From Microbacterium sp. SLBN-154 (GTDB lineage Bacteria > Actinomycetota > Actinomycetes > Actinomycetales > Microbacteriaceae), in contig NZ_VFNL01000001.1 in assembly GCF_006715565.1 (NCBI RefSeq), positions 1,240,001-1,304,000 on the forward strand: 64,000 bases of DNA, given 5' to 3'. Shown here in pieces: positions 5,341-19,760 of the stretch. The stretch's first letter is position 1. Every line of letters starts with the position of its first letter. The translations under genes were made by a program, and so were the position numbers. The notes beneath the pieces were generated by a model. It ran no database searches and had not been told where the DNA came from. It saw only the letters and a list, made by a program, of their open reading frames with translations.

Positions 5341-6352
5341 GGACTTCTTCCAGCACCGACCGATCCCAGAGGTCGGCGGGGACGTCCTGCCCCAGGAGGG
5401 CGAGCGTCTCGCGGTTCTGCGCCACGGAATCGTCGGTCCACCATCCGAACCCGTTCTCGTCGGTGACCTCCGAGAACATCAGCGGCACCTGCCGCTCGGC
5501 CTGCAGCTCCTGCGTCTCGAGGTCGAGGCCCGCGTCGGGGAACATCTCCAGCGTGAGGGCGGCGGCGGCATTCGTGTCGGCGCGATACTCGTCCCATCCG
5601 CGCACCTCGCCGCGCATGAGCGCGACGAGGTCGGCCCGCCGGTTGGCGAGGCTCTCCTCGGTGGCGATGTAGGTCTGCGAGTGGAGGGCGTAGCCGTAGT
5701 CGGCCATCAGCATCGTGACGCTCTCGACCCCCTGCACGGTCATCGCCACCGGCAGGTCGGTCTCCCAGCAGAGCAGGCAGTCCACTTCGTCGGCGAGGAG
5801 GGGTTGGGCCGAGTACTGCGTGGGCACGACCTCGATGCCGTCGACATCGACGTCGTTCAAGGTGCACAGGGTCTCGAGCACGGGGGTGTTGGCCAGGGCC
5901 ATGCCGATGCGCTTGCCGACGAGGTCGGCGGGTTCGTTCACGGGATTCCCGGGCAGGGAGGCGATGACGAACGGGTTCTTCTGCATCGCGACGCCGATGA
6001 TCTTGAACGGCGCCCCCTCGGCGACGGCGGCGGCGGTGTAGTCGGCGGCCGAGATGCCGATGAGCGCCGACCCCGACACGACCGGGGGCTCGACGGGGGC
6101 GTTGGGGCCCCCCTGCAGCAGGGTGACGTCGAGACCCTGGTACCAGCCGCGGTCCTGCGCGATATAGCTGCCCCCGAACTGCACCGAATGCAGCCACGAC
6201 AGCTGGAGGGATGCCGCGCGCGCGGCGTCTCCGCTGCCGAACAGTCCTCCGGGGCGCGTGCTCAGGCCGATGCCGGCCGCCGCGATGCCGGCGACACCGA
6301 CGATGCCGGCGCCGAGCAGGGTGCGACGGGTGAGGGTCTTGCGGTCTGTCAT
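5330..6352 (-). CDS. Tat-exported ABC substrate-binding protein, NMT1/THI5-like
   Basis: This 340-residue protein begins with a twin-arginine signal (TRRTLLGAG followed by a hydrophobic stretch to about residue 30), so it is probably exported folded. The body (LSWLHSVQFGGSYIAQDRGWY and LVGKRIGMAL) fits the NMT1/THI5 binding-protein fold used for pyrimidines, sulfonates, nitrate and similar small solutes. There is no lipobox cysteine. The ATG at 6352 overlaps the stop of the upstream fusion gene by 4 bp (ATGA). It belongs with the ATPase and fused permease downstream. The ligand is unknown. Confidence 0.85.
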   Translation of the reverse strand: MTDRKTLTRRTLLGAGIVGVAGIAAAGIGLSTRPGGLFGSGDAARAASLQLSWLHSVQFGGSYIAQDRGWYQGLDVTLLQGGPNAPVEPPVVSGSALIGISAADYTAAAVAEGAPFKIIGVAMQKNPFVIASLPGNPVNEPADLVGKRIGMALANTPVLETLCTLNDVDVDGIEVVPTQYSAQPLLADEVDCLLCWETDLPVAMTVQGVESVTMLMADYGYALHSQTYIATEESLANRRADLVALMRGEVRGWDEYRADTNAAAALTLEMFPDAGLDLETQELQAERQVPLMFSEVTDENGFGWWTDDSVAQNRETLALLGQDVPADLWDRSVLEEVHGS

Positions 6353-8043
6353 GTGGTGGTCTCCAGGGTGCGACGGCGGGTCCAGACGAGGGCGAGGCCG
6401 GGGAGCGAGGCGACGAGGGCCATCAACCCGAAGGCGGCGCTGGTGGCGAAGGCTTGGGCGGTGGTGAGGCCGGCGATCGGCAGCAGCGCGACCGCGGCGC
6501 CCTCGCGCACGCCCCAGCCGCCGACGGAGATCGGCAGCACCATTGCGAAAAGCACGAGCGGGATCACCGCGAAGACCGCTCCGAGGGGAAGCGGGGCACC
6601 GACGGCGGCGGCGCAGCACGCGAACGCCGCGAGGATGCACACCGTCGCGCCGGTGCTGAGGAGCACCTGAGCGGGGAGCACGCCCGGAGCGGCCAGGCTC
6701 CGGCGGGTCCCCTCCACGAGGCGGTCGAGCCGCCCGCCGGGGGCGGGCGGGGCGAACCGCAGGCACAGGACGAGGACGAGCCCGGCGACCGTGAGGGCGA
6801 GGAGCGCCGTCGAGATGCCGGTGGCGAGCACCGGGGGCCACGTGATGCCGCCGGCGGCGAAGAGGGTGATGAGGAAGCCGGCGGCGAAGACCGCGAGGAG
6901 AGCGACCTGGCCGACGCCCCGCTCGACGACCACGGCCCCCACCGATCGACCGAGCGTGGCCTGGTGGCGGGTGCGGGCGGCGCGGGCGGCGTCTCCGACC
7001 ACTCCACCGGGCAGGGTGGTGTTGACCAGCTGGGCGAGGAAGTACTCGCGGATCGCGTGCCCACCCGAGAGGTCGATGCCGAGCGGTGCGGCGGTCACCC
7101 GCCACCGGAGCGCGGAGAGCACGGTGTGGGTGGCGAGGAGGACGCAGGCGGCGAGCAGCCACCAGGGGTTCGCGCTGAACAGGATGTCGAGCACGTCGAC
7201 CCCGCCGGCGACCTGCCACACGACCGCGAGGATCAGGGCGGTGATGAGAGCCTGCCCGAGGCGGATGAGTGCCGGCCGGCCCGAGTCATCCGCATTCCGG
7301 CGCAGCTCCAGGATGTCGACGCCGAACGACCAGGTCAAGAGTCCCGCGGTGACGATCACGATGGCGATCGCGACCGGAGCCGACAGGAACGGGAACTGCA
7401 GCGCGATGAGGGCGATGAGCTGGAGGACGCAGATGACCTTGCGGCTGTACCGGGGACGGATGGGGCCGTTCAGCCACGGATAGGCGAGGGCGGCCGCGCC
7501 GAAGAGATAGCGGGGCAGGCCGAGAAGGATCGCGAGGGGCCCGGCGGGCCCGAGTCCGGCGAGCAGGGCGAGGACCAGGGCGAAGGCCGAGTCGACCTCC
7601 ATGTCGAAGCTCGCCCCGAACCGCGACGACAATCCCTGCCGGCGCGCGAGATATCCGTCGACGCCGTCGAGGCTGAGCGCGACGATGCTGACGGCGATGA
7701 CGGCGACGGGGTGCCCGCCGCCGGCGAAGAGGACGGCGAGGAGGAAGGCCACGACGGTGAGTCGGATGAGGGTGACCACGTTCGCGCCGCCGAGGCGCGC
7801 GAACGGGTGATGACGGGCGAGGGCGACGGCCGCGCCGACGAGCGCGAGGATCAGGGCGGAGGCGGCGGCGAGGGTGGCGGCGATCGGAAGGCCGAGGGCC
7901 AGCCCGCCGGCCATCGCAACGCCGACGCAGATGAAGGTGAGGGGAGTGAACCGAGTGACAGCGGGCCGGTTTTCGGCCGTGTCTGGCTGCCCGGCCGTGG
8001 TGTGCGGTGCTCCCGTGGCCGCGCTCTCCCGGGCGACGGTCAT
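6349..8043 (-). CDS. CDP-alcohol phosphatidyltransferase fused to LPG-synthase-like membrane domain
   Basis: This 564-residue polytopic membrane protein has two parts. Residues about 80-250 are a CDP-alcohol phosphatidyltransferase with the full motif D126, D129, G130, A133, R134, G143, D147, D151. That enzyme class joins a CDP-activated lipid or alcohol to a second alcohol. Residues about 255-560 resemble the membrane domain of lysylphosphatidylglycerol synthase (UPF0104), with LVNTTLPGGVVGDAARA and PISVGGWGVREG, a domain linked to lipid flipping. It is first in an operon with an ABC importer and two glycosyltransferases. I infer synthesis and translocation of an unusual phospholipid; the head group is unknown. 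Confidence 0.85.
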   Translation of the reverse strand: MTVARESAATGAPHTTAGQPDTAENRPAVTRFTPLTFICVGVAMAGGLALGLPIAATLAAASALILALVGAAVALARHHPFARLGGANVVTLIRLTVVAFLLAVLFAGGGHPVAVIAVSIVALSLDGVDGYLARRQGLSSRFGASFDMEVDSAFALVLALLAGLGPAGPLAILLGLPRYLFGAAALAYPWLNGPIRPRYSRKVICVLQLIALIALQFPFLSAPVAIAIVIVTAGLLTWSFGVDILELRRNADDSGRPALIRLGQALITALILAVVWQVAGGVDVLDILFSANPWWLLAACVLLATHTVLSALRWRVTAAPLGIDLSGGHAIREYFLAQLVNTTLPGGVVGDAARAARTRHQATLGRSVGAVVVERGVGQVALLAVFAAGFLITLFAAGGITWPPVLATGISTALLALTVAGLVLVLCLRFAPPAPGGRLDRLVEGTRRSLAAPGVLPAQVLLSTGATVCILAAFACCAAAVGAPLPLGAVFAVIPLVLFAMVLPISVGGWGVREGAAVALLPIAGLTTAQAFATSAAFGLMALVASLPGLALVWTRRRTLETTT

Positions 8044-8977: not shown

Positions 8978-10054
8978 TCATCCCCCGGCGAGGGTCGCGC
9001 CGGCCTGCTGAAGACAACGTCGGGGGTCGCCGAGCGCTTCCCTCGTCGAACCGGCGAGTTTCGTCAGCGACAGGTGGCGCACGAACGAATCTGTCGAGGC
9101 GCCGTCGGCGATGCGCCCGGCGACGAGTGCGACCGGGATGCCCCGCGCGGCCGCGAGATCATGCACGTGGGCGACGGTCTTCCCTGCTGCGGATGACCGG
9201 TCGAAGGAGCCCTCGCCCGTGATGACAAGGGATGCCGCGGCGAGTCGGGCCGGTAGGTCGATGAGTTGCGCCACCGCCTCCGCACCCGGCACGAGGCGTG
9301 CGCCCCACGCGAGCACGCCGAAGCCGGTGCCGCCCGCGGCTCCCGCGCCCGGGGTCTCGGGGTCGGCATCGAGCAGGTCCGCGAAGCGCGCGAGGGCGGC
9401 GTCGAGGAGCGGGATGTCGGTCATCCCCGCGCCCTTCTGCGGCCCGAAGACCGCCGCGGCCCCGCGCTCGCCGAGGAGGGGGCTGGTCACATCGGTGAGG
9501 ACCGTCACGCCGCCCGGCGGCAGGGGAGCGAGGTGGCGCAGGTCGGCGTCGGCGACGCTCGAGAGCCCGCGTGCCCCCGGGGCGATCGGCCTGCCCGCGG
9601 CATCGGTGAATCGCGCCCCGAGGGCGGTGAGCATCCCAGCGCCGCCGTCCGTGGATGCGCTGCTGCCGATGCCCAGGATCAGCCGTGACACCCCGTGCGC
9701 GAGCGCGGCGGCGATCGCCTCGCCGAAGCCGCGGGTGTCGGCGTCCCACGGTCTCAGCTGCGGCGGCGAGCCGAGGAGTTCGATCCCCGAGGTGGACGCG
9801 AGCTCGACCACGCCCGTTCCGTTCGGGGCGTCGTCGGTTGCGGGGAGCAGCAGCCAGGAGGACATCCGTCGCGCCCCGGGGACCGCAGCGGCGAATGCGT
9901 CGAGGGTTCCCTCTCCGCCGTCGGCCATCGGGCAGAGAACGACGTCGCGCTCGGGTTCGACGCTCCACCATCCTTCGGCGATCGCCTGGGCCGCGTCGGC
10001 CGCCCGGATCGACCCTTTGAAGGAGTCGATCGCGATGACGATCGGACCGCTCAT
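8978..10054 (-). CDS. Glycerate kinase (GlxK/GarK family)
   Basis: This 358-residue protein starts MSGPIVIAIDSFKGSIRAAD, the family's N-terminal motif, and has MADGGEGTLDA, GIGSSASTDGGAGML and ITGEGSFDRSSAAGKT. It would phosphorylate D-glycerate to 2-phosphoglycerate, the usual product of this family. The ATG at 10054 overlaps the ROK regulator's stop by 4 bp, so the two are translationally coupled. It lies back to back with an operon ending in a GH13_18 phosphorylase. If that enzyme splits glucosylglycerate, this kinase would take the released glycerate into glycolysis. Confidence 0.92.
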   Translation of the reverse strand: MSGPIVIAIDSFKGSIRAADAAQAIAEGWWSVEPERDVVLCPMADGGEGTLDAFAAAVPGARRMSSWLLLPATDDAPNGTGVVELASTSGIELLGSPPQLRPWDADTRGFGEAIAAALAHGVSRLILGIGSSASTDGGAGMLTALGARFTDAAGRPIAPGARGLSSVADADLRHLAPLPPGGVTVLTDVTSPLLGERGAAAVFGPQKGAGMTDIPLLDAALARFADLLDADPETPGAGAAGGTGFGVLAWGARLVPGAEAVAQLIDLPARLAAASLVITGEGSFDRSSAAGKTVAHVHDLAAARGIPVALVAGRIADGASTDSFVRHLSLTKLAGSTREALGDPRRCLQQAGATLAGG

Positions 10055-11193
10055 CGGGCGAGAGCGGCGTTGACGGCCGCCGCCGAGAACTCCCGGTCGA
10101 CGACGAGCGCGGCCAGGCCCACGGTCGCCGCCTGCCGTCCGAGCGTGGACAGGCTCACGGTGAGGTGCCGCGTCGCCCTGGGGAGCGAGAGCGGGTACAG
10201 CGTCTCGCGTACCCCGCTCAGAAGCGGTGGCGAGGCGAGCATTCCGCCGAGCACGACCTCTCCCGGGTTCAGCAGGGTCACGACCGTCGCGACGACCGTG
10301 CCGATGACCCGCCCTGCCTCCTGGGTGAGACGCGCGGCATCCGTATCGCCGGCTGCGAGGTACGCGCCGACGTCGGAACCCGATGCGGCGGGCTTGCCGA
10401 GATCGCTCAGCGCGCGGGCGACGGCCCTCCCCGACGCGACTGCCGCGAGGCATCCGCGCGCGCCGCATTGGCACACCATGTCGTCGTGCCCGGCGATCTT
10501 CACATGACCGATGTCGCCCGCACCGCCGTCGGTGCCGCGGTAGACCTGGCCGCCGATGACGATACCCGTGCCGATACCCGAAGAGACCTTGACGAAGCAG
10601 AGGGAGCGGGATGCCGGGTGCGCGCGTCGTTGCTCGCCGAGAGCGGCGGCATCGGCATCGTTCGCGACGAGCACGGGGAGGCCGAGGGCATCACCCAGGT
10701 GCTCCGGGACAGGGTACGCGTCCCACCCCGGCATGATCGGGGGCTGGCTGGGACGACCGGTGTCGGGATCGACGGGACCGGGAACGCTGATGCCGATCGC
10801 GGCCACGCGGTCGACCGCCCCGCCCGCGATCAGCGCTCGAGCACGTCCGGTGATCACATTGAGCGTGTGATCGGGGCCGTCGGCGACGGCGACGTCGATC
10901 TCCTGCTGGTCGAGAACCGTGCCGCCGAGATCGGTGAGGGAGACCGTGGTATGCGTCGTGTCCACCGTTGCGGTGACGATACCGGCGTGGGACGTGTTGA
11001 ACTCCAGTCGCCGCGAGGGGCGGCCGCCGGTCACGCGCTCTGTGCCCCGTTCGACGATGAGGCCGTGGTGGAGCAGAGCGTCCACCCGCGTCGCGACGGT
11101 CATACGCGAGAGCCCGGTCAGCTCCAGGACATCGCCGCGCGTGAGCGCGCCATGCTCGCGGATCAGCTCCAGCACGTCTCCGGGTCCGGACAT
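10051..11193 (-). CDS. ROK-family transcriptional regulator
   Basis: This 380-residue protein has an N-terminal winged helix (GALTRGDVLELTGLSRMTVATR) followed by the ROK sugar-kinase-like fold. It contains IGHVKIAG and the zinc motif CQCGARGCLAAVASG (CxCGxxGC). The kinase-like glycines are kept, but the protein is a regulator because of the DNA-binding head. GGAGAGGAGG precedes the ATG at 11193. It is divergent from the sugar-uptake operon at 11325, and the shared intergenic region holds a CTAGAC/GTCTAG inverted repeat that I take as its likely operator. Confidence 0.92.
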   Translation of the reverse strand: MSGPGDVLELIREHGALTRGDVLELTGLSRMTVATRVDALLHHGLIVERGTERVTGGRPSRRLEFNTSHAGIVTATVDTTHTTVSLTDLGGTVLDQQEIDVAVADGPDHTLNVITGRARALIAGGAVDRVAAIGISVPGPVDPDTGRPSQPPIMPGWDAYPVPEHLGDALGLPVLVANDADAAALGEQRRAHPASRSLCFVKVSSGIGTGIVIGGQVYRGTDGGAGDIGHVKIAGHDDMVCQCGARGCLAAVASGRAVARALSDLGKPAASGSDVGAYLAAGDTDAARLTQEAGRVIGTVVATVVTLLNPGEVVLGGMLASPPLLSGVRETLYPLSLPRATRHLTVSLSTLGRQAATVGLAALVVDREFSAAAVNAALAR

Positions 11194-11224
11194 GGGTCCT
11201 CCTCTCCGCTCACTCTACTTATGC

Positions 11225-11257
11225 TTGACAGCTAGACAAAACAAATCTAACGTCTAG
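11225..11257 (+). promoter_or_regulatory. Promoter and candidate ROK operator
   Basis: TTGACA (11225-11230), a 17-bp spacer and TAACGT (11248-11253) form a good promoter for the sugar operon. CTAGAC (11232-11237) and GTCTAG (11252-11257) form a perfect 6-bp inverted repeat with 14 bp between arms; it covers the spacer and the -10. On the other strand, TTGTTT and TAAGTA with 17-bp spacing could serve the ROK gene. Repression of both directions by the ROK protein is inferred. Confidence 0.6.
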
Positions 11258-11324
11258 TCATATCTGGGCCCCACCCGTTTGGGCGCAGTCCCTGCATCTG
11301 ATGTCAAGCGCGAGGAGGCGCACG

Positions 11325-12722
11325 GTGAAGATCCGTACCGCAGCGGTGACCCTGACCATGATCGGCGCAACGGCTCTCGTCCTGTCGAGTTGTTCTGCCG
11401 GCGGAAGTGACAGCGATGGAGGTGACAGCGGGGACGGCATCACTTTCTGGGTTCAGGAAGATCTTCCCGATCGCGTCGCGGCGACCGAAGAGATCGTCGC
11501 GGCCTTCACCGAGGAGTCCGGCATCCCCGTCGAGGTCGTCTCGGTGGCCGAAGACCAGTTCGCCCAGCTCATCACGTCCTCCGCGGCAGCGGGCGATCTC
11601 CCCGACGTCATCGGCGGCATCTCGCTGCCCCAGGTGCGGACGCTCTCGGCCAACGAGCTCGTCGACGCCGACGCCGTCGGCGCGGTGATCGACAGCCTCG
11701 ACGCATCGACGTTCTCCGACAAGGCGCTCGAGCTGACGGCGGACGGCGACGCGCAGCTGGCGGTGCCGAGCGAGTCGTGGCTGCAGATGCTGTTCTACCG
11801 CACCGACCTCTTCGAAGCCGCCGGGCTCGACGCACCGGACACGTATGAGAAGGTGCTCGAGGCGGCCGAGGCCCTCAACTCGCCCGAACTCGCCGGTTTC
11901 GTGGGGGCGACCGCTCCCGGCGACGCGTTCACCGAGCAGACCTTCGAGCAGGTGGCCCTGGGCAACGACTGCCAGCTGGTGAATGCGGACGGCGAGATCG
12001 AGCTCGACTCGGCGGCGTGCGTGGAGGCGTTCGGCTTCTACGGCGACCTGATCTCGAACTACTCCGTGCCCGGCGCGCAGGACGTCGACACCACGCGAGC
12101 CACTTACTTCGCTGGTGAGGCGGCCATGTTCATCTGGTCCAGCTTCGTCCTCGATGAGATGGCGGGATTGCGCGAAGACGCCAAGCCGAACTGCCCGGAG
12201 TGCGCAGACAACCCCGCGTTCCTCGCCGAGAACACCGGCGTCGTGACCTCGATCGCCGGGCCCGATGGCACCGAGCCCGCGCAGTTCGGTGAGATCACCT
12301 CGTGGACGATCACCGAAGGGGCGAACGTCGAAGACTCGCAAGCATTTGTCGAATACATGATGAGCACCGGCTACGAGGACTGGATCGCCATCGCTCCCGA
12401 GGGGAAGGTGCCCGTGCGCTTCGGGACGGCGGATGAGCCGGCGCTCTACTCCGATGCGTGGGCGACGTTCCCCGCCGGCGTCGACACGAAGGCACCGCTG
12501 TCGGACTTCTACGCGCCCGAGGTGCTCGAACAGGTGGCCGCCGGGCCCGAGAACATCGCCCGCTGGGCGATCCCGCAGGGGCAGGGCGACCTCCTCGGGG
12601 CCCTGCAGGGTGAGCAGCCCGTAGCGACCGCGGTGAGCGAGGTCACGCAGGGCACCGACGCCGAGCAGGCCGCCGCAATCGCCGCGGAGGCGGCGCGCTC
12701 CGTGCAGGAGTCGCTCCAGTGA
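11325..12722 (+). CDS. Sugar ABC transporter substrate-binding lipoprotein (family 1)
   Basis: This 465-residue protein begins at GTG 11325, with GAGGAGG six bases upstream; an in-frame ATG at 11301 has no such site. The signal peptide ends in VLSSC, giving a lipidated Cys23. The mature protein has the family 1 fold (ITFWVQEDLPDRVAA, DLPDVIGGISLPQV, WLQMLFYRTDLFEAAGL) found in MalE-like oligosaccharide binders. It is first in the seven-gene operon and overlaps the first permease by 4 bp. The ligand is probably a glucoside or galactoside, judged by the downstream enzymes. Confidence 0.9.
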   Translation: MKIRTAAVTLTMIGATALVLSSCSAGGSDSDGGDSGDGITFWVQEDLPDRVAATEEIVAAFTEESGIPVEVVSVAEDQFAQLITSSAAAGDLPDVIGGISLPQVRTLSANELVDADAVGAVIDSLDASTFSDKALELTADGDAQLAVPSESWLQMLFYRTDLFEAAGLDAPDTYEKVLEAAEALNSPELAGFVGATAPGDAFTEQTFEQVALGNDCQLVNADGEIELDSAACVEAFGFYGDLISNYSVPGAQDVDTTRATYFAGEAAMFIWSSFVLDEMAGLREDAKPNCPECADNPAFLAENTGVVTSIAGPDGTEPAQFGEITSWTITEGANVEDSQAFVEYMMSTGYEDWIAIAPEGKVPVRFGTADEPALYSDAWATFPAGVDTKAPLSDFYAPEVLEQVAAGPENIARWAIPQGQGDLLGALQGEQPVATAVSEVTQGTDAEQAAAIAAEAARSVQESLQ

Positions 12723-13732
12723 CGCAGCTGGCCGGGGGGACGGGCGTAGCGAGCCCGCCCCCCGCGCCGCCTGCTCCAGGACGCAAAGAGCGGATCGGGC
12801 GTTCGCGCAAGGCCCGGGAGGAGAACCGGGCCGGGCTCCTCCTCATCAGCCCGACCCTCGTCATCATCGCGGTGGCGGTGGTGCTGCCGATCCTCTGGGC
12901 GGTGGCGCTGGCGTTCCAGGATGTGCGGCTCATCAACATCCGCGGTACCGGCTTCATCGGCGAGTACACTCTCGACAACTTCGTCGAAGTGCTCACGTCA
13001 CCCGGCTTCTTCCAGTCGCTGTGGACAACGGTCGTCTACTCGGTCTGCGGCACGGCACTGGCGATCGGCATCGGCCTCGTCGCCGCGCTCGCGCTGCAGA
13101 AGCCCTTCCGGGGGCGCGGACTCATCCGGGCATCCCTCCTCCTTCCGTACGTGGCTCCGGTGGTGGCCGCCACCTTCGTCTGGGCGACGCTGCTGAATCC
13201 GCAGTTCGGCTTCGTCAACTGGGTCGGCCGGAACCTCCTCGGATGGGAGGATCCGGTGGCGTTCCTGTCGCAGCGGTCGCTGCCGGTGTCGCTGTTCGGG
13301 CTGGAGATCGACCTGCCGATCGCACTCATGACCGTCATCTGCTTCGAGGCGTGGCGATCATTTCCCTTCGCCTTCCTCTTCCTCACCGCACGGCTGGGTG
13401 CGGTCCCCGGCGCCCTCGACGAGGCCGCCCGCATCGACGGGGCCACCCCGACACAGCGTTTCCGCCACATCCTCTGGCCGCAGCTTCTCCCCACCATCGC
13501 CGTATTGAGCGTGCTGCGCTTCATCTGGACGTTCAACAACTTCGACGACATCTACCTGCTCACGGGCGGCGGCGCGGGCACCCAGGTGGTCTCGGTCCGC
13601 GTCTTCGACTACATGACCGCTCGCGGCGACATCGGCGCGGCGGCGGCGCAGGCTCTCGTGCTCGCGCTCATCCTCGCCGTGCTCGTCGGCGTCTACCTCA
13701 AGCTCTTCGGGCGACAGGAGGAACAGGCATGA
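12719..13732 (+). CDS. Sugar ABC transporter permease, MalF-like
   Basis: This 337-residue membrane protein has about six helices after a basic N-terminal tail. The EAA loop is intact (LDEAARIDGATPTQRFRHI, near 230). Its GTG start at 12719 overlaps the stop of the binding-protein gene (GTGA). With the next permease it forms the transmembrane channel of a carbohydrate importer. No ATPase is encoded in the operon, so a shared MsiK/MalK-type ATPase elsewhere probably powers it, as is common in actinobacteria. Confidence 0.9.
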   Translation: MTQLAGGTGVASPPPAPPAPGRKERIGRSRKAREENRAGLLLISPTLVIIAVAVVLPILWAVALAFQDVRLINIRGTGFIGEYTLDNFVEVLTSPGFFQSLWTTVVYSVCGTALAIGIGLVAALALQKPFRGRGLIRASLLLPYVAPVVAATFVWATLLNPQFGFVNWVGRNLLGWEDPVAFLSQRSLPVSLFGLEIDLPIALMTVICFEAWRSFPFAFLFLTARLGAVPGALDEAARIDGATPTQRFRHILWPQLLPTIAVLSVLRFIWTFNNFDDIYLLTGGGAGTQVVSVRVFDYMTARGDIGAAAAQALVLALILAVLVGVYLKLFGRQEEQA

Positions 13733-14604
13733 GCAGCCTCACCCGCGACCGGATCGAGAACCGGCTGATCGCGATCCTTCGGCCCATCGTGATCTCCGTG
13801 CTGCTGATCGTGGCCGTCTTCCCCTTCTACTACATGGTCCTGCTCAGTTTCCGCTCGCTCGACTCTCTCCTGCAGAACCCCGGGGCGCTGTGGATCTCGA
13901 TCGAGGAGCTCGATCTCTCGACGTACCTCGACGTCCTGCTTCCGGTCTCGGACGGCGGCCAGGGCTTCATCGTCTTCATGCGGAACTCGCTGCTCGTCGC
14001 CCTGTCGACCGTGGCGCTCACGCTCCTCGTCGCGATCCCGGGTGCCTATGCCGTCAGTCGGCTGAAGTTCTTCGGTCGCCGTCAGGTGTCGGGGCTGTTC
14101 CTCGCGGTGTACTTCTTCCCCGCGATCCTCCTCGCCGTCCCGCTCTTCGTGTTCTTCACCCAGCTCGGTCTGCGCGGGTCCCTGATCGCCCTCGTGATCG
14201 TCTACGTCTCGCAGGTGGCGGCGGTGTCGATCTACACCCTGAAGAACTACTTCGCGACCGTCCCGGTGTCGCTCGAGGAGGCGGCCGCGATCGACGGGTG
14301 CACGAGACTGCAGACGATGCGGAAGATCAGCCTGCCGCTGGCAATGCCGGCGCTGGTGTCGAACGGCCTGTTCATCTTCATGATCGCGTGGAACGAGTTC
14401 CTCTTCGCGCTGCTGTTCCTCGTCGAGCGACGAGACTCCTGGACGGTCTCGCTCGGTCTGTCCCAGCTCTCGGGGAGCATCGAGGTGCCGACGACCGTTC
14501 TCATGGCGGGGTCGGTCATCCTGACCCTGCCCATCATCATCTTGTTCTTCGCCTCTGAGCGACTCCTCGTCGGTGGGCTGACCGCCGGCGCAGAGAAGGG
14601 ATGA
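13729..14604 (+). CDS. Sugar ABC transporter permease, MalG-like
   Basis: This 291-residue protein has about six transmembrane helices and the EAA loop LEEAAAIDGCTRLQTMRKI near 185. The start ATG at 13729 overlaps the MalF-like gene by 4 bp and its stop overlaps the dehydrogenase gene by 4 bp. It is the second half of the importer channel, and it ends in the hydrophobic-then-short-tail pattern (ASERLLVGGLTAGAEKG) usual for MalG-type proteins. Confidence 0.9.
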   Translation: MSSLTRDRIENRLIAILRPIVISVLLIVAVFPFYYMVLLSFRSLDSLLQNPGALWISIEELDLSTYLDVLLPVSDGGQGFIVFMRNSLLVALSTVALTLLVAIPGAYAVSRLKFFGRRQVSGLFLAVYFFPAILLAVPLFVFFTQLGLRGSLIALVIVYVSQVAAVSIYTLKNYFATVPVSLEEAAAIDGCTRLQTMRKISLPLAMPALVSNGLFIFMIAWNEFLFALLFLVERRDSWTVSLGLSQLSGSIEVPTTVLMAGSVILTLPIIILFFASERLLVGGLTAGAEKG

Positions 14605-15665
14605 CCCCGATGCCTCACATCGTGCAGTTCACCGCGCCCGGATCCGTCGAGGTCGTCGAGATCGTTCCTGCTCCGCTCGTCCCCGGCTCCGTCCGCGTCG
14701 CCACCTGGTACTCGGGGATCTCCGCGGGTACGGAGCTCACTGCGTACCGCGGCACGAACCCCTACCTCACGAGCACCTGGGACTCGCAGCGGCGCCTCTT
14801 CGTCCCGGGCGAACCGAGCTTCGGGTACCCCGTGCAGGGGTGGGGCTACTCCGAGGTCGGCGAGGTCGTCGAGGTCGCCGATGACGTGACCGCGCTGGCA
14901 GTCGGAGACGTCGTGCACGGGATCTGGGGGCACCGCTCCGATGCTGTCCTGCCGGCGGCTGCACTGGAAGGACGGTTGCTTCCCACCGACGCCGACCCCC
15001 TGCTCGGGACATTCGCGAGGGTTGCGTCGATCGCGCTCAACGGCGTGCTCGCGGCCGACGTGCGGCTGGGAGAGCGGGTCGCGATCTTCGGTCAGGGGGT
15101 GATCGGGCTCTTGGCGACGCGCCTCGCCACGCTCGCGGGCGGGCGTGTGTATGCCGTCGACACGGTGCCGGACCGCCTCGAGGTCGCCCGCAGATTCGGC
15201 GCCGCAGAGGTGGTGGACGCCCTCATCGACGGGGGCGCGGGGGCCCGTATCCGCGAGCTCACGGGCGAGGGCGTCGACAGCGCCATCGAGCTGTCGGGCA
15301 GCGACCGGGCGCTCCACGAGGCGATCCGGAGTGTCGTGGTCGAGGGGATCGTGGCGGCATCCGGCTTCTATCAGGGAGGGGCGGTGAACCTCCACCTGGG
15401 CGAGGAGTTCCATCACAACCGGGTCCGCATCCTCGCGAGTCAGATCTCCGGTGTTCCGGTCGGGCTCGGTGGCCGGTGGGACCAGTCACGTCTCGTCCGC
15501 ACCGTGATGGCGCTCATGCTCGAGGGGCGGCTCGACGCCGCCGCCCTCGTGACCGATGTCGTCGATGTCAGCGACGTCGCCGACATCTTCCGGCGTCTGG
15601 ATGCCGGTGACTCGGCCATCCTGCAGGCTGTGCTGGCCTTCGAACGCGCGCCGAGGTCGCTGTGA
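14601..15665 (+). CDS. MDR-family dehydrogenase, YcjQ-like
   Basis: This 354-residue protein belongs to the medium-chain dehydrogenase family. It has GYSEVGEVVEV near 85 and the NAD-binding Rossmann motif GQGVIGLLATRLA near 160. The spacing of SAGTELTAYRG, GVDSAIELSGSD and FHHNRVRILASQ matches what I recall of E. coli YcjQ, which oxidises gulosides/glucosides at C3. Typical catalytic-zinc cysteines are not evident. It is coupled by 4-bp overlaps to the permease before and the Gfo/Idh/MocA gene after, so it probably acts on the imported glycoside. Substrate assignment is inference. Confidence 0.75.
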   Translation: MTPMPHIVQFTAPGSVEVVEIVPAPLVPGSVRVATWYSGISAGTELTAYRGTNPYLTSTWDSQRRLFVPGEPSFGYPVQGWGYSEVGEVVEVADDVTALAVGDVVHGIWGHRSDAVLPAAALEGRLLPTDADPLLGTFARVASIALNGVLAADVRLGERVAIFGQGVIGLLATRLATLAGGRVYAVDTVPDRLEVARRFGAAEVVDALIDGGAGARIRELTGEGVDSAIELSGSDRALHEAIRSVVVEGIVAASGFYQGGAVNLHLGEEFHHNRVRILASQISGVPVGLGGRWDQSRLVRTVMALMLEGRLDAAALVTDVVDVSDVADIFRRLDAGDSAILQAVLAFERAPRSL

Positions 15666-16774
15666 CGGCGAAAGCGCTCGGAGACATCCCGGATCATCGA
15701 CCGCTGATTCCCCGTGACCCGCCGGCTGTCGGGCTCATCGGGGCCGGCGCAATCGCGCGGAGCGCCCACCTCCCCGCGTATCGCGCATGGGGAGTGCCAG
15801 TGGTCGCGGTCGCCTCGCGCGACGCCGCCGACGCACGAGCCCTCGCCGCGGACTTCGCGATCACCCGGGTGCACTCCACGGTCGAGGAGCTCCTCGCCGA
15901 CCCGGCGGTGGCGGTCGTCGACCTCGCGACCGGCCCGCGGGGACGGATCGACCTCATCGAGGCGGCGGTCAGCGCGGGCAAGCATGTCCTTGCGCAGAAG
16001 CCACTGACCATCGACGAGGCCGATATGCCGCGACTCGCGGAGATCGTCGCCGGCGCCCGCGCGCGGGGATTGCGCCTCGCGGTCAACCAGAACGCGCGGT
16101 GGGCCCCCGCATGGCGGCTCGCCACGCTGCTCGTCCGCGGTGGGGCGATCGGTGAGGTCGTCGGGATCACCCACCTGCACGACAAGCCGCTCCCGCCTCT
16201 GGCAAGTACGCCGTTCGACGCCGTTCCGCACATGCTCCTGGCCGACTACCTCGTTCACTGGATCGACATCAGCCGCTGCTGGCTCGAGGGCGCGCGCGTG
16301 GACGCGGTGTGGGCGAGCGAGTCGAGGGTCCCGCAGCAACCGGCGTCCGCTTGCAATCCGTGGAACGCCGACGTCCGGTTCCGGACCGATCGCGGTGCGA
16401 CCGCGGTCGTGCGGATCGTCGGCGATTCCCGCGCGACGGGCGGCGGCTGTCCGTTCTGGATCCACGGAACCGAGGGAACCCTCCGGGGGAGCGTCCTTCG
16501 CGGCAGCGATCAGCTCGAACTCGACCGCGACGGCGACGTGACGACCTTCGCAGTAGAGGGTCAGTGGTTCCCGGACGGCTTCGCCGGCGCGATGGGGGAG
16601 CTCCTCTCGGCCGTCGTGTCCGATCGTGAGCCTGAGAACTCTCTCGCGCACGTGCTCGCCACCGCGCGTCTCGGGTTCGCCGCTGTCGCCTCAGCCGAGG
16701 AGGACGGAGCGCCGGTGCATCCGCACGACCTTCTCCTCACGCGCGCGACCTCCGAAAGCGTGGTCACTCCATGA
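15662..16774 (+). CDS. Gfo/Idh/MocA-family oxidoreductase, YcjS-like
   Basis: This 370-residue protein has an N-terminal NAD(P)-binding fold (VGLIGAGAIARSAHLPAY, about 23-40) and the family motif HVLAQKPLTID near 108, which keeps the catalytic lysine of the EKP motif. The second domain carries the substrate-site segment VDYLVHWIDI-like (ADYLVHWIDISRCW). The GTG at 15662 overlaps the previous stop. The family oxidises sugars, glycosides and inositols. Together with the MDR enzyme it recalls the YcjQ/YcjS pair that works at C3 of glycosides; no YcjR-like isomerase is present here. Confidence 0.85.
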   Translation: MTAKALGDIPDHRPLIPRDPPAVGLIGAGAIARSAHLPAYRAWGVPVVAVASRDAADARALAADFAITRVHSTVEELLADPAVAVVDLATGPRGRIDLIEAAVSAGKHVLAQKPLTIDEADMPRLAEIVAGARARGLRLAVNQNARWAPAWRLATLLVRGGAIGEVVGITHLHDKPLPPLASTPFDAVPHMLLADYLVHWIDISRCWLEGARVDAVWASESRVPQQPASACNPWNADVRFRTDRGATAVVRIVGDSRATGGGCPFWIHGTEGTLRGSVLRGSDQLELDRDGDVTTFAVEGQWFPDGFAGAMGELLSAVVSDREPENSLAHVLATARLGFAAVASAEEDGAPVHPHDLLLTRATSESVVTP

Positions 16775-18069
16775 CCGAGACCCATGACATTCCGGTGACC
16801 GACCGCGCGCGCGTCTATACGGAGGGGTGGCAGAGCTGGAGCCCCACGACCTGGTATCGACGCGGGGAGCCGCCGCACCGCCCCGACGAGGGGTGGCAGC
16901 ATCTCATGAGGTTCCGACCCGGGCATCCTGCGCCCGAGGGTCTCCTGCAGGGCGAAGGCCTCGTCGTGGTCGACCCGGGCGGCGGCGGTGCCGCCGAAGT
17001 CTTCGCCGCGCTCGACGCTTCGGAGCGTGTGCCGACCATCCATGCGAGCTGGCGTGGCGACCGCGTCATCGTCACCGCGGAGGACGGCGTCGAGCGGTGG
17101 ACGGCAGCGCCGTCGGATGACCCCGGTGACGCCGCACTCGCGGCATTCGGATCGCGGTTCGGTGCCGCTGCCGGAGCGCGGACCGGCTCACCGACGCCGC
17201 GCGTCTGGTGCACCTGGTACCAGTACTTCGAGGACGTGACGGCGGCGCATGTCGTCGAGAATCTGCGCGCCATCGACGCAGGCGCCCTCGGCGAGGGTGT
17301 CGATGTGGATGTCGTGCAGATCGACGATGGCTGGAGCCTTGGCACGGGTGAATGGACGGCACCCAACCCGCGCTTCGGTGACCTGAGCGAAGCCGTCGCC
17401 GCCATCCGCGACACCGGGCGTCGTGCCGGCGTCTGGCTGGCGCCGTTCAGCGTCGGTTCGCGGTCCGACCTCGCCGTGCGCCACCCCGATTGGCTCACCG
17501 GGCCGGCCGGGTACAACTGGGGCGACGAGCTCATCGGTCTCGACCTCACCCACCCCGGAGTCCGCGATTACCTCTCCGAGGTCTTCACCCGGCTACGCAC
17601 CCTCGGCGTCGACTATCTCAAGCTCGACTTCCTGTACTCCGGGGCCGTCCCAGGCGCCCGTCATGAGGACTTCACCCCCGTCGCCGCCTATCGGTCGGGG
17701 CTCCAGCTCATCCGCGACGTCATGGGGGAGGACGCGTACCTCCTCGGTTGCGGTGCTCCGATCCTGCCGAGCGTCGGGCTCGTCGATGCGATGCGCGTCT
17801 CACCCGATACCTTCCACGAGGGCGGCGAGGACGGCTCGCAGGGGATGCGGGGACGGATGTCACTGGAAGCGCGCTCCTGGCAGGACCGACGCCTCTACAC
17901 CACCGATCCGGATTGCCTCGTCGCCAGGCCCGGCTTCGCCCTGCGGGACGAGTGGGCGGAGGTCGTCCTGAACGCACCCGGGGTCCGGGGGTTCAGCGAC
18001 CGGATCGCGGACCTCGACGCGCACGGGCGGGAGCTCGTGCGCCGATTGCTCACGGAGGGGCCGGTATGA
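16771..18069 (+). CDS. GH36-like glycoside hydrolase (alpha-galactosidase type)
   Basis: This 432-residue protein belongs to clan GH-D. The (beta/alpha)8 barrel shows WCTWYQYFEDVTAAHVVENL, VDVVQIDDGW and LDLTHPGVRDYL. The nucleophile should be Asp286 in YLKLDFLYSG, and the acid/base Asp346 in MRVSPDTF. The N-terminal beta domain is short, so the protein is smaller than classic GH36 enzymes of about 700 residues, and no signal peptide is visible. It would cleave terminal alpha-galactosides, or a related alpha-glycoside, in the cytoplasm after uptake. It is coupled by 4-bp overlaps on both sides. Confidence 0.82.
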   Translation: MTETHDIPVTDRARVYTEGWQSWSPTTWYRRGEPPHRPDEGWQHLMRFRPGHPAPEGLLQGEGLVVVDPGGGGAAEVFAALDASERVPTIHASWRGDRVIVTAEDGVERWTAAPSDDPGDAALAAFGSRFGAAAGARTGSPTPRVWCTWYQYFEDVTAAHVVENLRAIDAGALGEGVDVDVVQIDDGWSLGTGEWTAPNPRFGDLSEAVAAIRDTGRRAGVWLAPFSVGSRSDLAVRHPDWLTGPAGYNWGDELIGLDLTHPGVRDYLSEVFTRLRTLGVDYLKLDFLYSGAVPGARHEDFTPVAAYRSGLQLIRDVMGEDAYLLGCGAPILPSVGLVDAMRVSPDTFHEGGEDGSQGMRGRMSLEARSWQDRRLYTTDPDCLVARPGFALRDEWAEVVLNAPGVRGFSDRIADLDAHGRELVRRLLTEGPV

Positions 18070-19760
18070 CCGACATCGATCTCGACAGCCTGCGCGCGCG
18101 CATCCGTGCGCTCGTCACCGAGCTGTATCCCGACCATGTCGACCAGGTCGTCGATGATCTCCTCGCTCTGGCCGAACGGTGGGCGCCGCTGCTCGGACGC
18201 GTCGGTACCGGCCGACCCGACGAAGGGACGGCGTATCTCATCACCTACGGCGACGCGTTCCGCCGGAAGGGGGAAACGCCTCTCCACACGCTCGCCGATG
18301 TGGTGCGCCGTCACGTCCGCGACGCGGTCACCGACATCCATCTCCTCCCCATCTACCCGTGGACCTCCGACGACGGCTTCGGAGTCGTGGACCACCGCCA
18401 GGTGAACCCCGACCTCGGCACCTGGGACGACATCGCGGAGCTGCGCGCCGACCACGCCCTCGCGCTCGACTTCGTTGCCAACCACGTCTCGACTTCGAGC
18501 CCCTGGTTCCAGGGTTGGCTCGCAGACGACCCGCGCTACGCCGGGTACTTCCTCGAGCCCGGTCCCGACTTCGACACCTCCCGGGTCGTGCGACCGCGTA
18601 CATCGCCGCTCACGCACGAGTACCCGCGCCCGGATGGCCGGGTCGCCCGAGCGTGGACGACCTTCGGACCCGATCAGGTCGACATCGACCCGTCCACGCC
18701 GGCCGCGATGCTCGATCTCACGGATGTGCTGCTGGGCTACCTCGCCCGCGGCGCGACGACGGTGCGGCTCGACGCCATCGGCTTCCTGTGGAAGGAGTCG
18801 GGCACCACCTGCATCCATCTGCCGCAGACGCACGCCGTGATCCGGCTGTGGCGGGTGCTCGTGGATGCGCTGGCGCCCGGGACACTGCTGCTGACCGAGA
18901 CCAACGTGCCGCATGCCGACAACATCACCTACTTCGGCGACGGCTCGAACGAGGCGCAGATGGTGTACCAGTTCGCCCTCCCGCCGCTCGTCCTGCATGC
19001 CTTCGTCACCGGCGATGCCGGTGCGCTCTCGCGATGGGCCTCGGGAATCGTTCCGGTGAGCGAGACGGCGACGTGGTTCAACTTCCTCGCCAGTCACGAT
19101 GGCATCGGACTTCGGCCCACTGAGGGACTCCTGACCGACGAGGATCGCACGATGCTCGTCGAGCGCACCCTCGCGCGCGGCGGTCGGGTGTCGATGGCGC
19201 GACGCCCGGATGGCTCGGAGAGTGTGTACGAGCTAAACACGAACTTCCTCGATGCGCTCGTGGATCCCGGCTCATCCGATCCGGATGCGGAGGCCGTCGC
19301 GCGCGGACTGGCCGCGCACGCGATCCTGCTCTCGGTCGTCGGGGTGCCGGCGATCTACTACCACTCCCTGCTCGGGTCGGGCCAGGACCGCGTCGGGATG
19401 GAGGAGAGCGACATCCCGCGCCGCATCAATCGCGAGGTCCTCGATGCCGACGCGCTCGACCGCGAGCTGGGGTCCTCCGAACGGCGTCGGGGAATGCTGG
19501 AGGGTTTGCGTTCCCTGCTGGCGGCCAGGCGGCAGCATCCGGCCTTCTCGCCCTTCGCCGATCAGCGAGTGGAGACGATCGATCCGCGCGTGTTCGTGGT
19601 CCGACGGGCCCCCGGGACGGCCGAGGAGGTCATGGCCGTCGTGAACGTCAGCGGAGATGCCGTGGATCTTCCGGATCTCTGCGGGCGCGACGTGCTCACC
19701 GGTCTCGAACTCGACAGCGTCCGGCTCCCGCCCTTCGGGTTCGTCTGGTTGCGTCCCTGA
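18066..19760 (+). CDS. GH13_18 glycoside phosphorylase, glucosylglycerate phosphorylase-like
   Basis: This 564-residue protein has the sucrose-phosphorylase-type GH13 fold. The nucleophile is Asp236 in TTVRLDAIGF, the acid/base Glu278 in LLLTETNVPHADN, and the third acid Asp345 in FLASHDGIGLRP. The TETNVPH and SHDGIGLRP segments fit the glucosylglycerate phosphorylase branch (E. coli YcjM) better than true sucrose phosphorylase. The reaction would be glycoside plus phosphate to alpha-glucose 1-phosphate and an aglycone. Glycerate as aglycone is supported by the divergent glycerate kinase gene but is not proven. It is the last gene of the operon. Confidence 0.85.
   Translation: MTDIDLDSLRARIRALVTELYPDHVDQVVDDLLALAERWAPLLGRVGTGRPDEGTAYLITYGDAFRRKGETPLHTLADVVRRHVRDAVTDIHLLPIYPWTSDDGFGVVDHRQVNPDLGTWDDIAELRADHALALDFVANHVSTSSPWFQGWLADDPRYAGYFLEPGPDFDTSRVVRPRTSPLTHEYPRPDGRVARAWTTFGPDQVDIDPSTPAAMLDLTDVLLGYLARGATTVRLDAIGFLWKESGTTCIHLPQTHAVIRLWRVLVDALAPGTLLLTETNVPHADNITYFGDGSNEAQMVYQFALPPLVLHAFVTGDAGALSRWASGIVPVSETATWFNFLASHDGIGLRPTEGLLTDEDRTMLVERTLARGGRVSMARRPDGSESVYELNTNFLDALVDPGSSDPDAEAVARGLAAHAILLSVVGVPAIYYHSLLGSGQDRVGMEESDIPRRINREVLDADALDRELGSSERRRGMLEGLRSLLAARRQHPAFSPFADQRVETIDPRVFVVRRAPGTAEEVMAVVNVSGDAVDLPDLCGRDVLTGLELDSVRLPPFGFVWLRP

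Follow-up and report, generated by a model that had tools for sequence, protein, structure and literature searches.

The window analysed here, a stretch of 64,000 nucleotides from Microbacterium sp. SLBN-154 (contig NZ_VFNL01000001.1), covers positions 1,240,001–1,304,000 of a 3.57-Mb single-contig genome and contains a candidate operon for glycoside catabolism. Seven plus-strand genes (11301–19760, in window coordinates) are joined by six 4-bp ATGA/GTGA overlaps, and a ROK-family regulator gene and a glycerate kinase gene, which share a 4-bp overlap of their own, lie divergently on the minus strand. This arrangement, proposed in an earlier note on the same DNA, held when open reading frames and junctions were recomputed. 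The first three plus-strand genes encode an ABC importer, made up of a substrate-binding lipoprotein of the SBP_bac_1 family (SBP; 11301–12722; Pfam E 1.3e-20), permease A (12719–13732) and permease B (13729–14604; 291 aa), the permeases being recognized by Pfam. They are followed by genes for a YcjQ-like MDR dehydrogenase (14601–15665), predicted to be a glycoside 3-dehydrogenase; a Gfo/Idh/MocA oxidoreductase (hereafter Gfo; 15662–16774; Pfam E 2.9e-15), predicted to be a 3-ketoglycoside reductase; a GH36 protein (16771–18069); and a GH13_18 protein (18066–19760).

The operon resembles the ycjMNOPQRSTUV genes of E. coli, with which it has in common a glucosylglycerate phosphorylase (GGaP; the RefSeq name of YcjM), an SBP, two permeases, a YcjQ-like MDR and a Gfo protein. 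The earlier note had described this as the same core, which proved true to an uneven degree: the GH13_18 protein matches YcjM along its full length with 41% identity, whereas identities are 29% for the SBP (to YcjN), 35% and 38% for permeases A and B (to YcjO and YcjP), 29% for the MDR (to YcjQ) and, for the distantly YcjS-like Gfo, 27% over 161 residues. GH36, ROK and glycerate kinase genes are additions with respect to E. coli. By contrast, neither YcjR-like (by profile), GH65-like (as YcjT) nor GH63-like frames were found in the 64-kb window, while in E. coli YcjR lies between YcjQ and YcjS. RefSeq names YcjQ a D-guloside 3-dehydrogenase, YcjR a 3-dehydro-D-guloside 4-epimerase and YcjS a D-glucoside 3-dehydrogenase. 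The absence of YcjR, on which the earlier note did not remark, is the most informative feature of the operon.

The genes for MDR, Gfo and GH36 form a conserved cassette. Searching named genomes with a Gfo alignment yielded 80 loci, the best 38 of which (L061–L098; Microbacterium, Cellulomonas, Isoptericola, Mycetocola, Naasia, Nocardioides, Arthrobacter, Georgenia and others) encode Gfo proteins that are 54–72% identical. All three genes occur together in 36 of these 38 loci, the two others (L090 and L098) being contigs cut inside the cassette. The remaining 42 loci (L099–L140), with Gfo identities of at most 48%, gave no MDR or GH36 match, Pfam having been run on part of three only. Wherever the junction was testable among the 38 loci, the in-frame 4-bp overlap was present between MDR and Gfo (29/29) and between GH36 and GH13_18 (28/28); it was frequent between Gfo and GH36 (29/37), SBP and permease A (25/32) and permeases A and B (28/32), and was found between permease B and MDR in only 2 of 31 cases. 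Since these overlaps recur in the related loci, and the genes keep their order in other genera, the arrangement in the window is not due to chance. GH36 alone was discarded as a marker, for it occurs without MDR in all 14 loci (L047–L060) around other GH36 genes of the same class.

The relationship of GH36 and YcjR to MDR was scored in 103 loci, including the window and E. coli, using profiles built partly from the same loci and counting a gene as near when it lay within 3.5 kb of the MDR gene with 60% profile coverage. GH36 was near MDR in 43 loci, YcjR was near in 42, and no locus had both. In the rest, GH36 was farther away in 11, YcjR was farther away in one (L176, 4.3 kb), neither was found in five, and one contig had no MDR. 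The 42 YcjR loci contained no GH36 frame over their whole length, and of the 43 GH36 loci L174 alone gave a YcjR match, a partial one. In the subset of 63 loci selected solely through MDR, 8 had GH36, 41 had YcjR, none had both and 14 were other; the hypergeometric chance of no overlap in this set is 8e-5, which, the loci being related, is not a proper significance level. A Gfo gene was present in seven of the eight GH36 loci of this set. The best tree of the MDR proteins (102 rows) shows four switches of state, compared to three in an earlier tree of 87 rows.

The loci fetched included 25 unscored ones (L199–L216 and L218–L224) with MDR proteins 32–41% identical to that of the window, L199 being a 6-kb contig; tblastn gave no YcjR or GH36 match in them, and they are among the 27 "none" rows of the 87-row tree. 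Also outside the scoring were L001–L060, except L004, and the short loci L141–L170, L195–L196 and L225–L226; several of the latter belong to genomes represented in the scoring by a longer locus. MDR-search matches not retrieved with their surroundings numbered 5 of 37, 11 of 31, 0 of 8, 49 of 57 (plasmid records), 13 of 35 and 0 of 24 in the respective sets.

GH36 stands beside MDR in three unrelated lineages, namely the cassette clade, L174, and L180, L197 and L198, which carry a long classical GH36; a profile of this long type fits the GH36 proteins of L235 and L242 as well. Gfo stands beside GH36 in two separate lineages of a tree with weak deep branches. The partial YcjR match of L174 (8056–8361) covers the first ~101 of 265 YcjR positions and lies between MDR and GH36; this cut gene is possibly a mis-assembly of a fragmented genome. 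YcjR loci are in turn varied: 23 of the 42 contain Gfo, GH63 and a GDE-like gene, and L217 (Nonomuraea) contains MDR, YcjR and GH63. In those that we call Streptomyces-type, a working label for YcjR loci based in part on kinship, the Gfo gene was confirmed by Pfam in L246. Two YcjR loci, L173 and L217, have a transporter related to that of the window (SBP 48–52%, permeases 61–64% identical), suggesting from these identities that a similar importer may serve both the YcjR and the GH36 branches. We find it fairly likely that YcjR and GH36 act at one node.

In line with the earlier note, the GH13_18 protein (564 aa) has the traits of a GGaP. In a tree with two sucrose phosphorylases, one glucosylglycerol phosphorylase, 7qqi (named only Aamy domain-containing protein) and YcjM as references, it fell on the YcjM side of a 100/100 branch, apart from the four structures of sucrose or glucosylglycerol phosphorylase type. 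It carries the strand-5 motif (T/S)ETN as TETN (277–280), where these four have EVH or EIH, and the loop-A Glu as E389 within SVYELN, where the four PDB references have Gln; the sucrose phosphorylase loop-A motif N(L/V)D(I/L/V)YQ is replaced by SVYELN. Both GGaP signatures and the sucrose phosphorylase motif are taken from PMC7178133. By tree and motifs the protein is thus, with high probability, a GGaP, and the glucosylglycerate part of the operon is solid as a prediction. Genes of this kind are rare in the family of the organism: at a threshold of E 1e-60, 6 of 299 genomes have one, its own included.

The glycerate kinase gene (8978–10054, minus strand) encodes a 358-aa protein of PF02595 type, which matches the family over its full length (335 bits versus a cut-off of 23.3; Pfam E 5.6e-100) and TIGR00045 above cut-off; both equivalog models, for the 2- and the 3-kinase type, match below cut-off. 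As it is the only PF02595 match in the genome and the GH13_18 protein bears the GGaP signatures, phosphorylase and kinase plausibly make up a complete glucosylglycerate route, as the earlier note had supposed. The kinase is not, as that note had it, the novel element: according to PMC7178133, GGaP often has a glycerate kinase gene and those of two other enzymes as neighbours, which helped to reveal its specificity, and in relatives of the operon the kinase is optional, following GH13_18 in 8 of the 38 loci. The window differs from such GGaP–kinase systems in being an uptake operon with a redox pair and GH36. No glucosyl-3-phosphoglycerate synthase (GpgS) was found above cut-off in the genome (best match 55.5 bits versus 262), and a galactokinase domain is encoded there, which argues for uptake and catabolism rather than synthesis.

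The GH36 protein (432 aa) is of the short type of Thermotoga GalA (TmGalA), although it is shorter than both TmGalA and TtGalA. Residues K284, D286, C327, R342 and D346 align to TmGalA and are invariant in 29 cassette sequences; from the catalytic and subsite roles that we presume for the aligned residues in TmGalA, D286 would be the nucleophile and D346 the acid/base. An AlphaFold2 model (pLDDT 89.5, pTM 0.89) had alpha-galactosidases of Thermotoga and Thermus as its best PDB matches (E 4e-35 and 1e-31), which backs the GH36 assignment and not the aglycone. Alignment and model indicate that the protein is very probably an alpha-galactosidase, which in outline bears out the galactosylated forms that the note had suggested; in contrast to TmGalA and TtGalA, whose catalytic residues and fold it keeps, it is linked to MDR and Gfo.

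The MDR shares with YcjQ the pattern GTE..R..P and a place in the same tree; its GTE presumably stands where the usual zinc-cysteine motif would be. In Gfo, the lysine of AQKP, D195 and H199 were invariant in five aligned sequences and are, we assume, catalytic. The C3 oxidation chemistry that had been anticipated from this pair of dehydrogenases has support in outline, the redox step itself being a prediction.

Evidence on the substrate came from the genes that take the place of the phosphorylase. Among the 38 loci, 28 have GH13_18, eight have GH63-family genes instead, the two cut contigs have neither, and none has both. The replacement consists of one GH63 gene in two loci and of two genes in six; in four of the eight, the two GH63 genes occupy the place between MDR and Gfo and that behind GH36, and the order varies elsewhere. 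In L046, the same genome region as L078 (Phytoactinopolyspora), the second GH63 protein matched PDB 2z07 (E 9e-70) and mycobacterial hydrolase entries (E 3e-62 to 8e-60; 5ohc and others at E 6e-61), and the first gave a more distant match (E 1e-29). We take 2z07 to be the Thermus mannosylglycerate hydrolase and 5ohc the glucosylglycerate hydrolase of M. hassiacum. Both enzymes are described in PMC6608630. Their relatives belong to another family than GH13_18 and would hydrolyse rather than phosphorolyse, yet they occupy the GGaP place in sister operons; this exchange of the phosphorylase for hydrolases acting on the same class of substrate speaks for glucosylglycerate as an intermediate. L044 and L045 have transporter and GGaP without the cassette. 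In L045, a GDE_N_bis protein with an MGH1-like domain (15492–17387) is encoded after transporter and ROK, beside GGaP and without MDR, which suggests a role for it in the breakdown of glycerate glycosides.

Families, signatures, conservation and the exclusion of YcjR and GH36 are read from the sequences; substrate, redox direction, stereochemistry and all activities in the following scheme are predicted from them. The importer would take up a glycoside that has glucosylglycerate as its base, or else several hexosylglycerates. The MDR, like YcjQ, would oxidize C3 of a terminal D-gulosyl unit (or of another C3-epimeric hexose), and Gfo would reduce the 3-keto sugar from the other face; gulose and galactose being epimers at C3 (PMC4011222), its product would be a D-galactosyl unit. 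GH36 could then hydrolyse the alpha-galactoside, freeing galactose, after which the GH13_18 enzyme would phosphorolyse the remaining glucosylglycerate, releasing glucose 1-phosphate together with glycerate for the kinase to phosphorylate. In E. coli and the Streptomyces-type loci, YcjR would instead epimerize C4 of the 3-keto sugar, to give a glucoside, with alpha-glucosyl-cleaving enzymes to match. The cleaving enzymes would fit each version: E. coli has GH65 kojibiose phosphorylase with GGaP; the Streptomyces-type loci have GDE-like and GH63 proteins, and we infer that the GDE-like ones remove a terminal glucose; the window type has GH36 with GGaP or GH63. For the full route from guloside to galactoside we see a chance slightly short of even. 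A wider view, in which the operon represents the galactose branch of a widespread pathway whose substrate is an undescribed natural osmolyte of the D-gulosyl-glucosylglycerate type, E. coli ycj and the Streptomyces-type loci are its glucose branch, and the branch is set by gaining YcjR or GH36, is speculative and on present evidence doubtful.

Several observations weigh against the guloside-to-galactoside route. The stereochemistry is anchored solely in the guloside activity of YcjQ, which is related to the MDR by the low identity given above, and the likeness of Gfo to YcjS is weak and partial. Of the 103 loci, 38 entered the set through their Gfo gene, which inflates the GH36 count and makes the presence of Gfo circular there. 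Just one independent switch pair lies on starred branches of the MDR tree, and a sign test cannot reach significance. L174 has no Gfo with its GH36 in the 17 kb available and holds both GH13_18 and a GH63 gene. Of the 42 YcjR loci, 12, short contigs among them, show no Gfo nearby, and the reduction step is therefore not always visible. In addition, a clade of 12 loci (L229–L234, L236, L238–L241 and L244) has MDR without GH36, YcjR or Gfo near it, a complete GH36 lying 4.7–8.5 kb off in nine and a partial one in two. A related SBP is present in 9 of these 12, and in L232, the one checked, an SDR gene adjoins MDR; an SDR perhaps takes the reductase role in this clade. Finally, we know of no gulosyl-glucosylglycerate, and the literature searched, with subscription papers mostly outside it, gave no paper on galactosylglycerate-type names.

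If the operon scavenged two glycosides of glyceric acid or glycerol, GH36 would act on alpha-galactosides and GH13_18 on glucosylglycerate, and MDR and Gfo would oxidize something else, such as released galactose or another epimer, with no C3 epimerization before GH36. The sequence and fold of an ordinary alpha-galactosidase, the absence of an MDR match from the 14 GH36 loci L047–L060 and the diverse sugar substrates of Gfo proteins are all compatible with such scavenging, which nevertheless leaves unexplained the exclusion of GH36 and YcjR beside the same MDR, the company of Gfo and GH36 in seven of the eight MDR-chosen loci and the recruitment of unrelated GH36 lineages; we judge it unlikely, though deserving of attention. 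Less likely still is that the imported sugar is already a galactoside, turned into a glucoside by MDR and YcjR elsewhere and here hydrolysed by GH36, with MDR and Gfo as relics or enzymes of side substrates. Such import would also put YcjR and GH36 at the same node and would suit the 12 YcjR loci without visible Gfo; relics, however, are expected to decay, and the MDR/Gfo overlap is kept in every testable locus, while a second Gfo lineage occurs with GH36.

At first sight the pair of GH36 and GH13_18 would also fit a raffinose and sucrose operon, in which GH36 takes galactose off raffinose and GH13_18 is a sucrose phosphorylase, and the TIGR03852 sucrose phosphorylase model does match, at 161 bits versus a cut-off of 334. 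The TETN and YE motifs, the 100/100 split from the sucrose phosphorylases, the glucosylglycerol phosphorylase and 7qqi, and the replacement of GH13_18 by relatives of GH63 glycosylglycerate hydrolases in sister operons speak against it; it was rejected on the motifs and tree of GH13_18 and has a very slim chance of being right.

The guloside-to-galactoside route would mean that C3 epimerization by two opposed dehydrogenases lets an ordinary alpha-galactosidase remove a rare sugar. From the exchange of YcjR for unrelated alpha-galactosidases, the product of MDR is predicted to be a 3-keto-galactoside/guloside, and GGaP together with its GH63 replacements predicts glycerate in the aglycone. For the E. 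coli ycj transporter, a 2024 screen of YcjN found no natural ligand (PMC11543891); the present comparison would reduce the question of this ligand to a few enzyme assays and offers a simple genomic rule for annotating such operons. The earlier note had thought its combination of genes an undescribed version, which stands for the MDR–Gfo–GH36 cassette and its exclusion of YcjR, of which no description was found in the literature searched, itself weak evidence of novelty given the coverage stated, and falls for the published kinase neighbour. What is new is thus the cassette, the replacement of the phosphorylase by GH63 and the GH36/YcjR exclusion.

The ROK-family regulator (10051–11193, minus strand; Pfam ROK E 4.1e-45) has an N-terminal winged-helix-like region, and its gene adjoins the operon in relatives too. 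The gap between ROK and SBP contains a putative promoter/operator (11225–11257, plus strand), formed by TTGACA (11225–11230) and the perfect inverted repeat CTAGAC-N14-GTCTAG (11232–11257), a pattern with one match in the window and none in 100 shuffles. Among 31 such gaps, that of the window included, several relatives carry related, mostly imperfect repeats, and others carry none at the same stringency. We infer that ROK binds the repeat and regulates the operon.

Scans of the window for tRNA genes and Rfam families gave no match. At 6349–8043 (minus strand) a single frame, possibly a fusion, matches both CDP-alcohol phosphatidyltransferase and lysylphosphatidylglycerol-synthase transmembrane families. 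Rhizobial and archaeal MDR relatives, considered as kin of the cassette, were set aside because they fall in other subfamilies. On rhizobial-type plasmids (L218–L223), at ~7.7–11.1 kb, MDR- and YcjS-like sequences are joined in one frame of ~1,080 aa, annotated as glycosyltransferase in three of the six records (L219, L221 and L222), the other three having no gene table; its neighbours are a glycosyltransferase of family 4 and, for L219 and L222, also a UDP-galactopyranose mutase, which makes it possible that the same redox pair is used there in biosynthesis. An MDR relative occurs in 25 of the 39 genomes of family f58, and 13 lower-scoring copies (L202–L210 and L213–L216) have no YcjR or GH36 match nearby. 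On a Haloarcula plasmid (L224, 10001–11023), an MDR relative lies between genes for GTP cyclohydrolase IIa and 6-carboxytetrahydropterin synthase.

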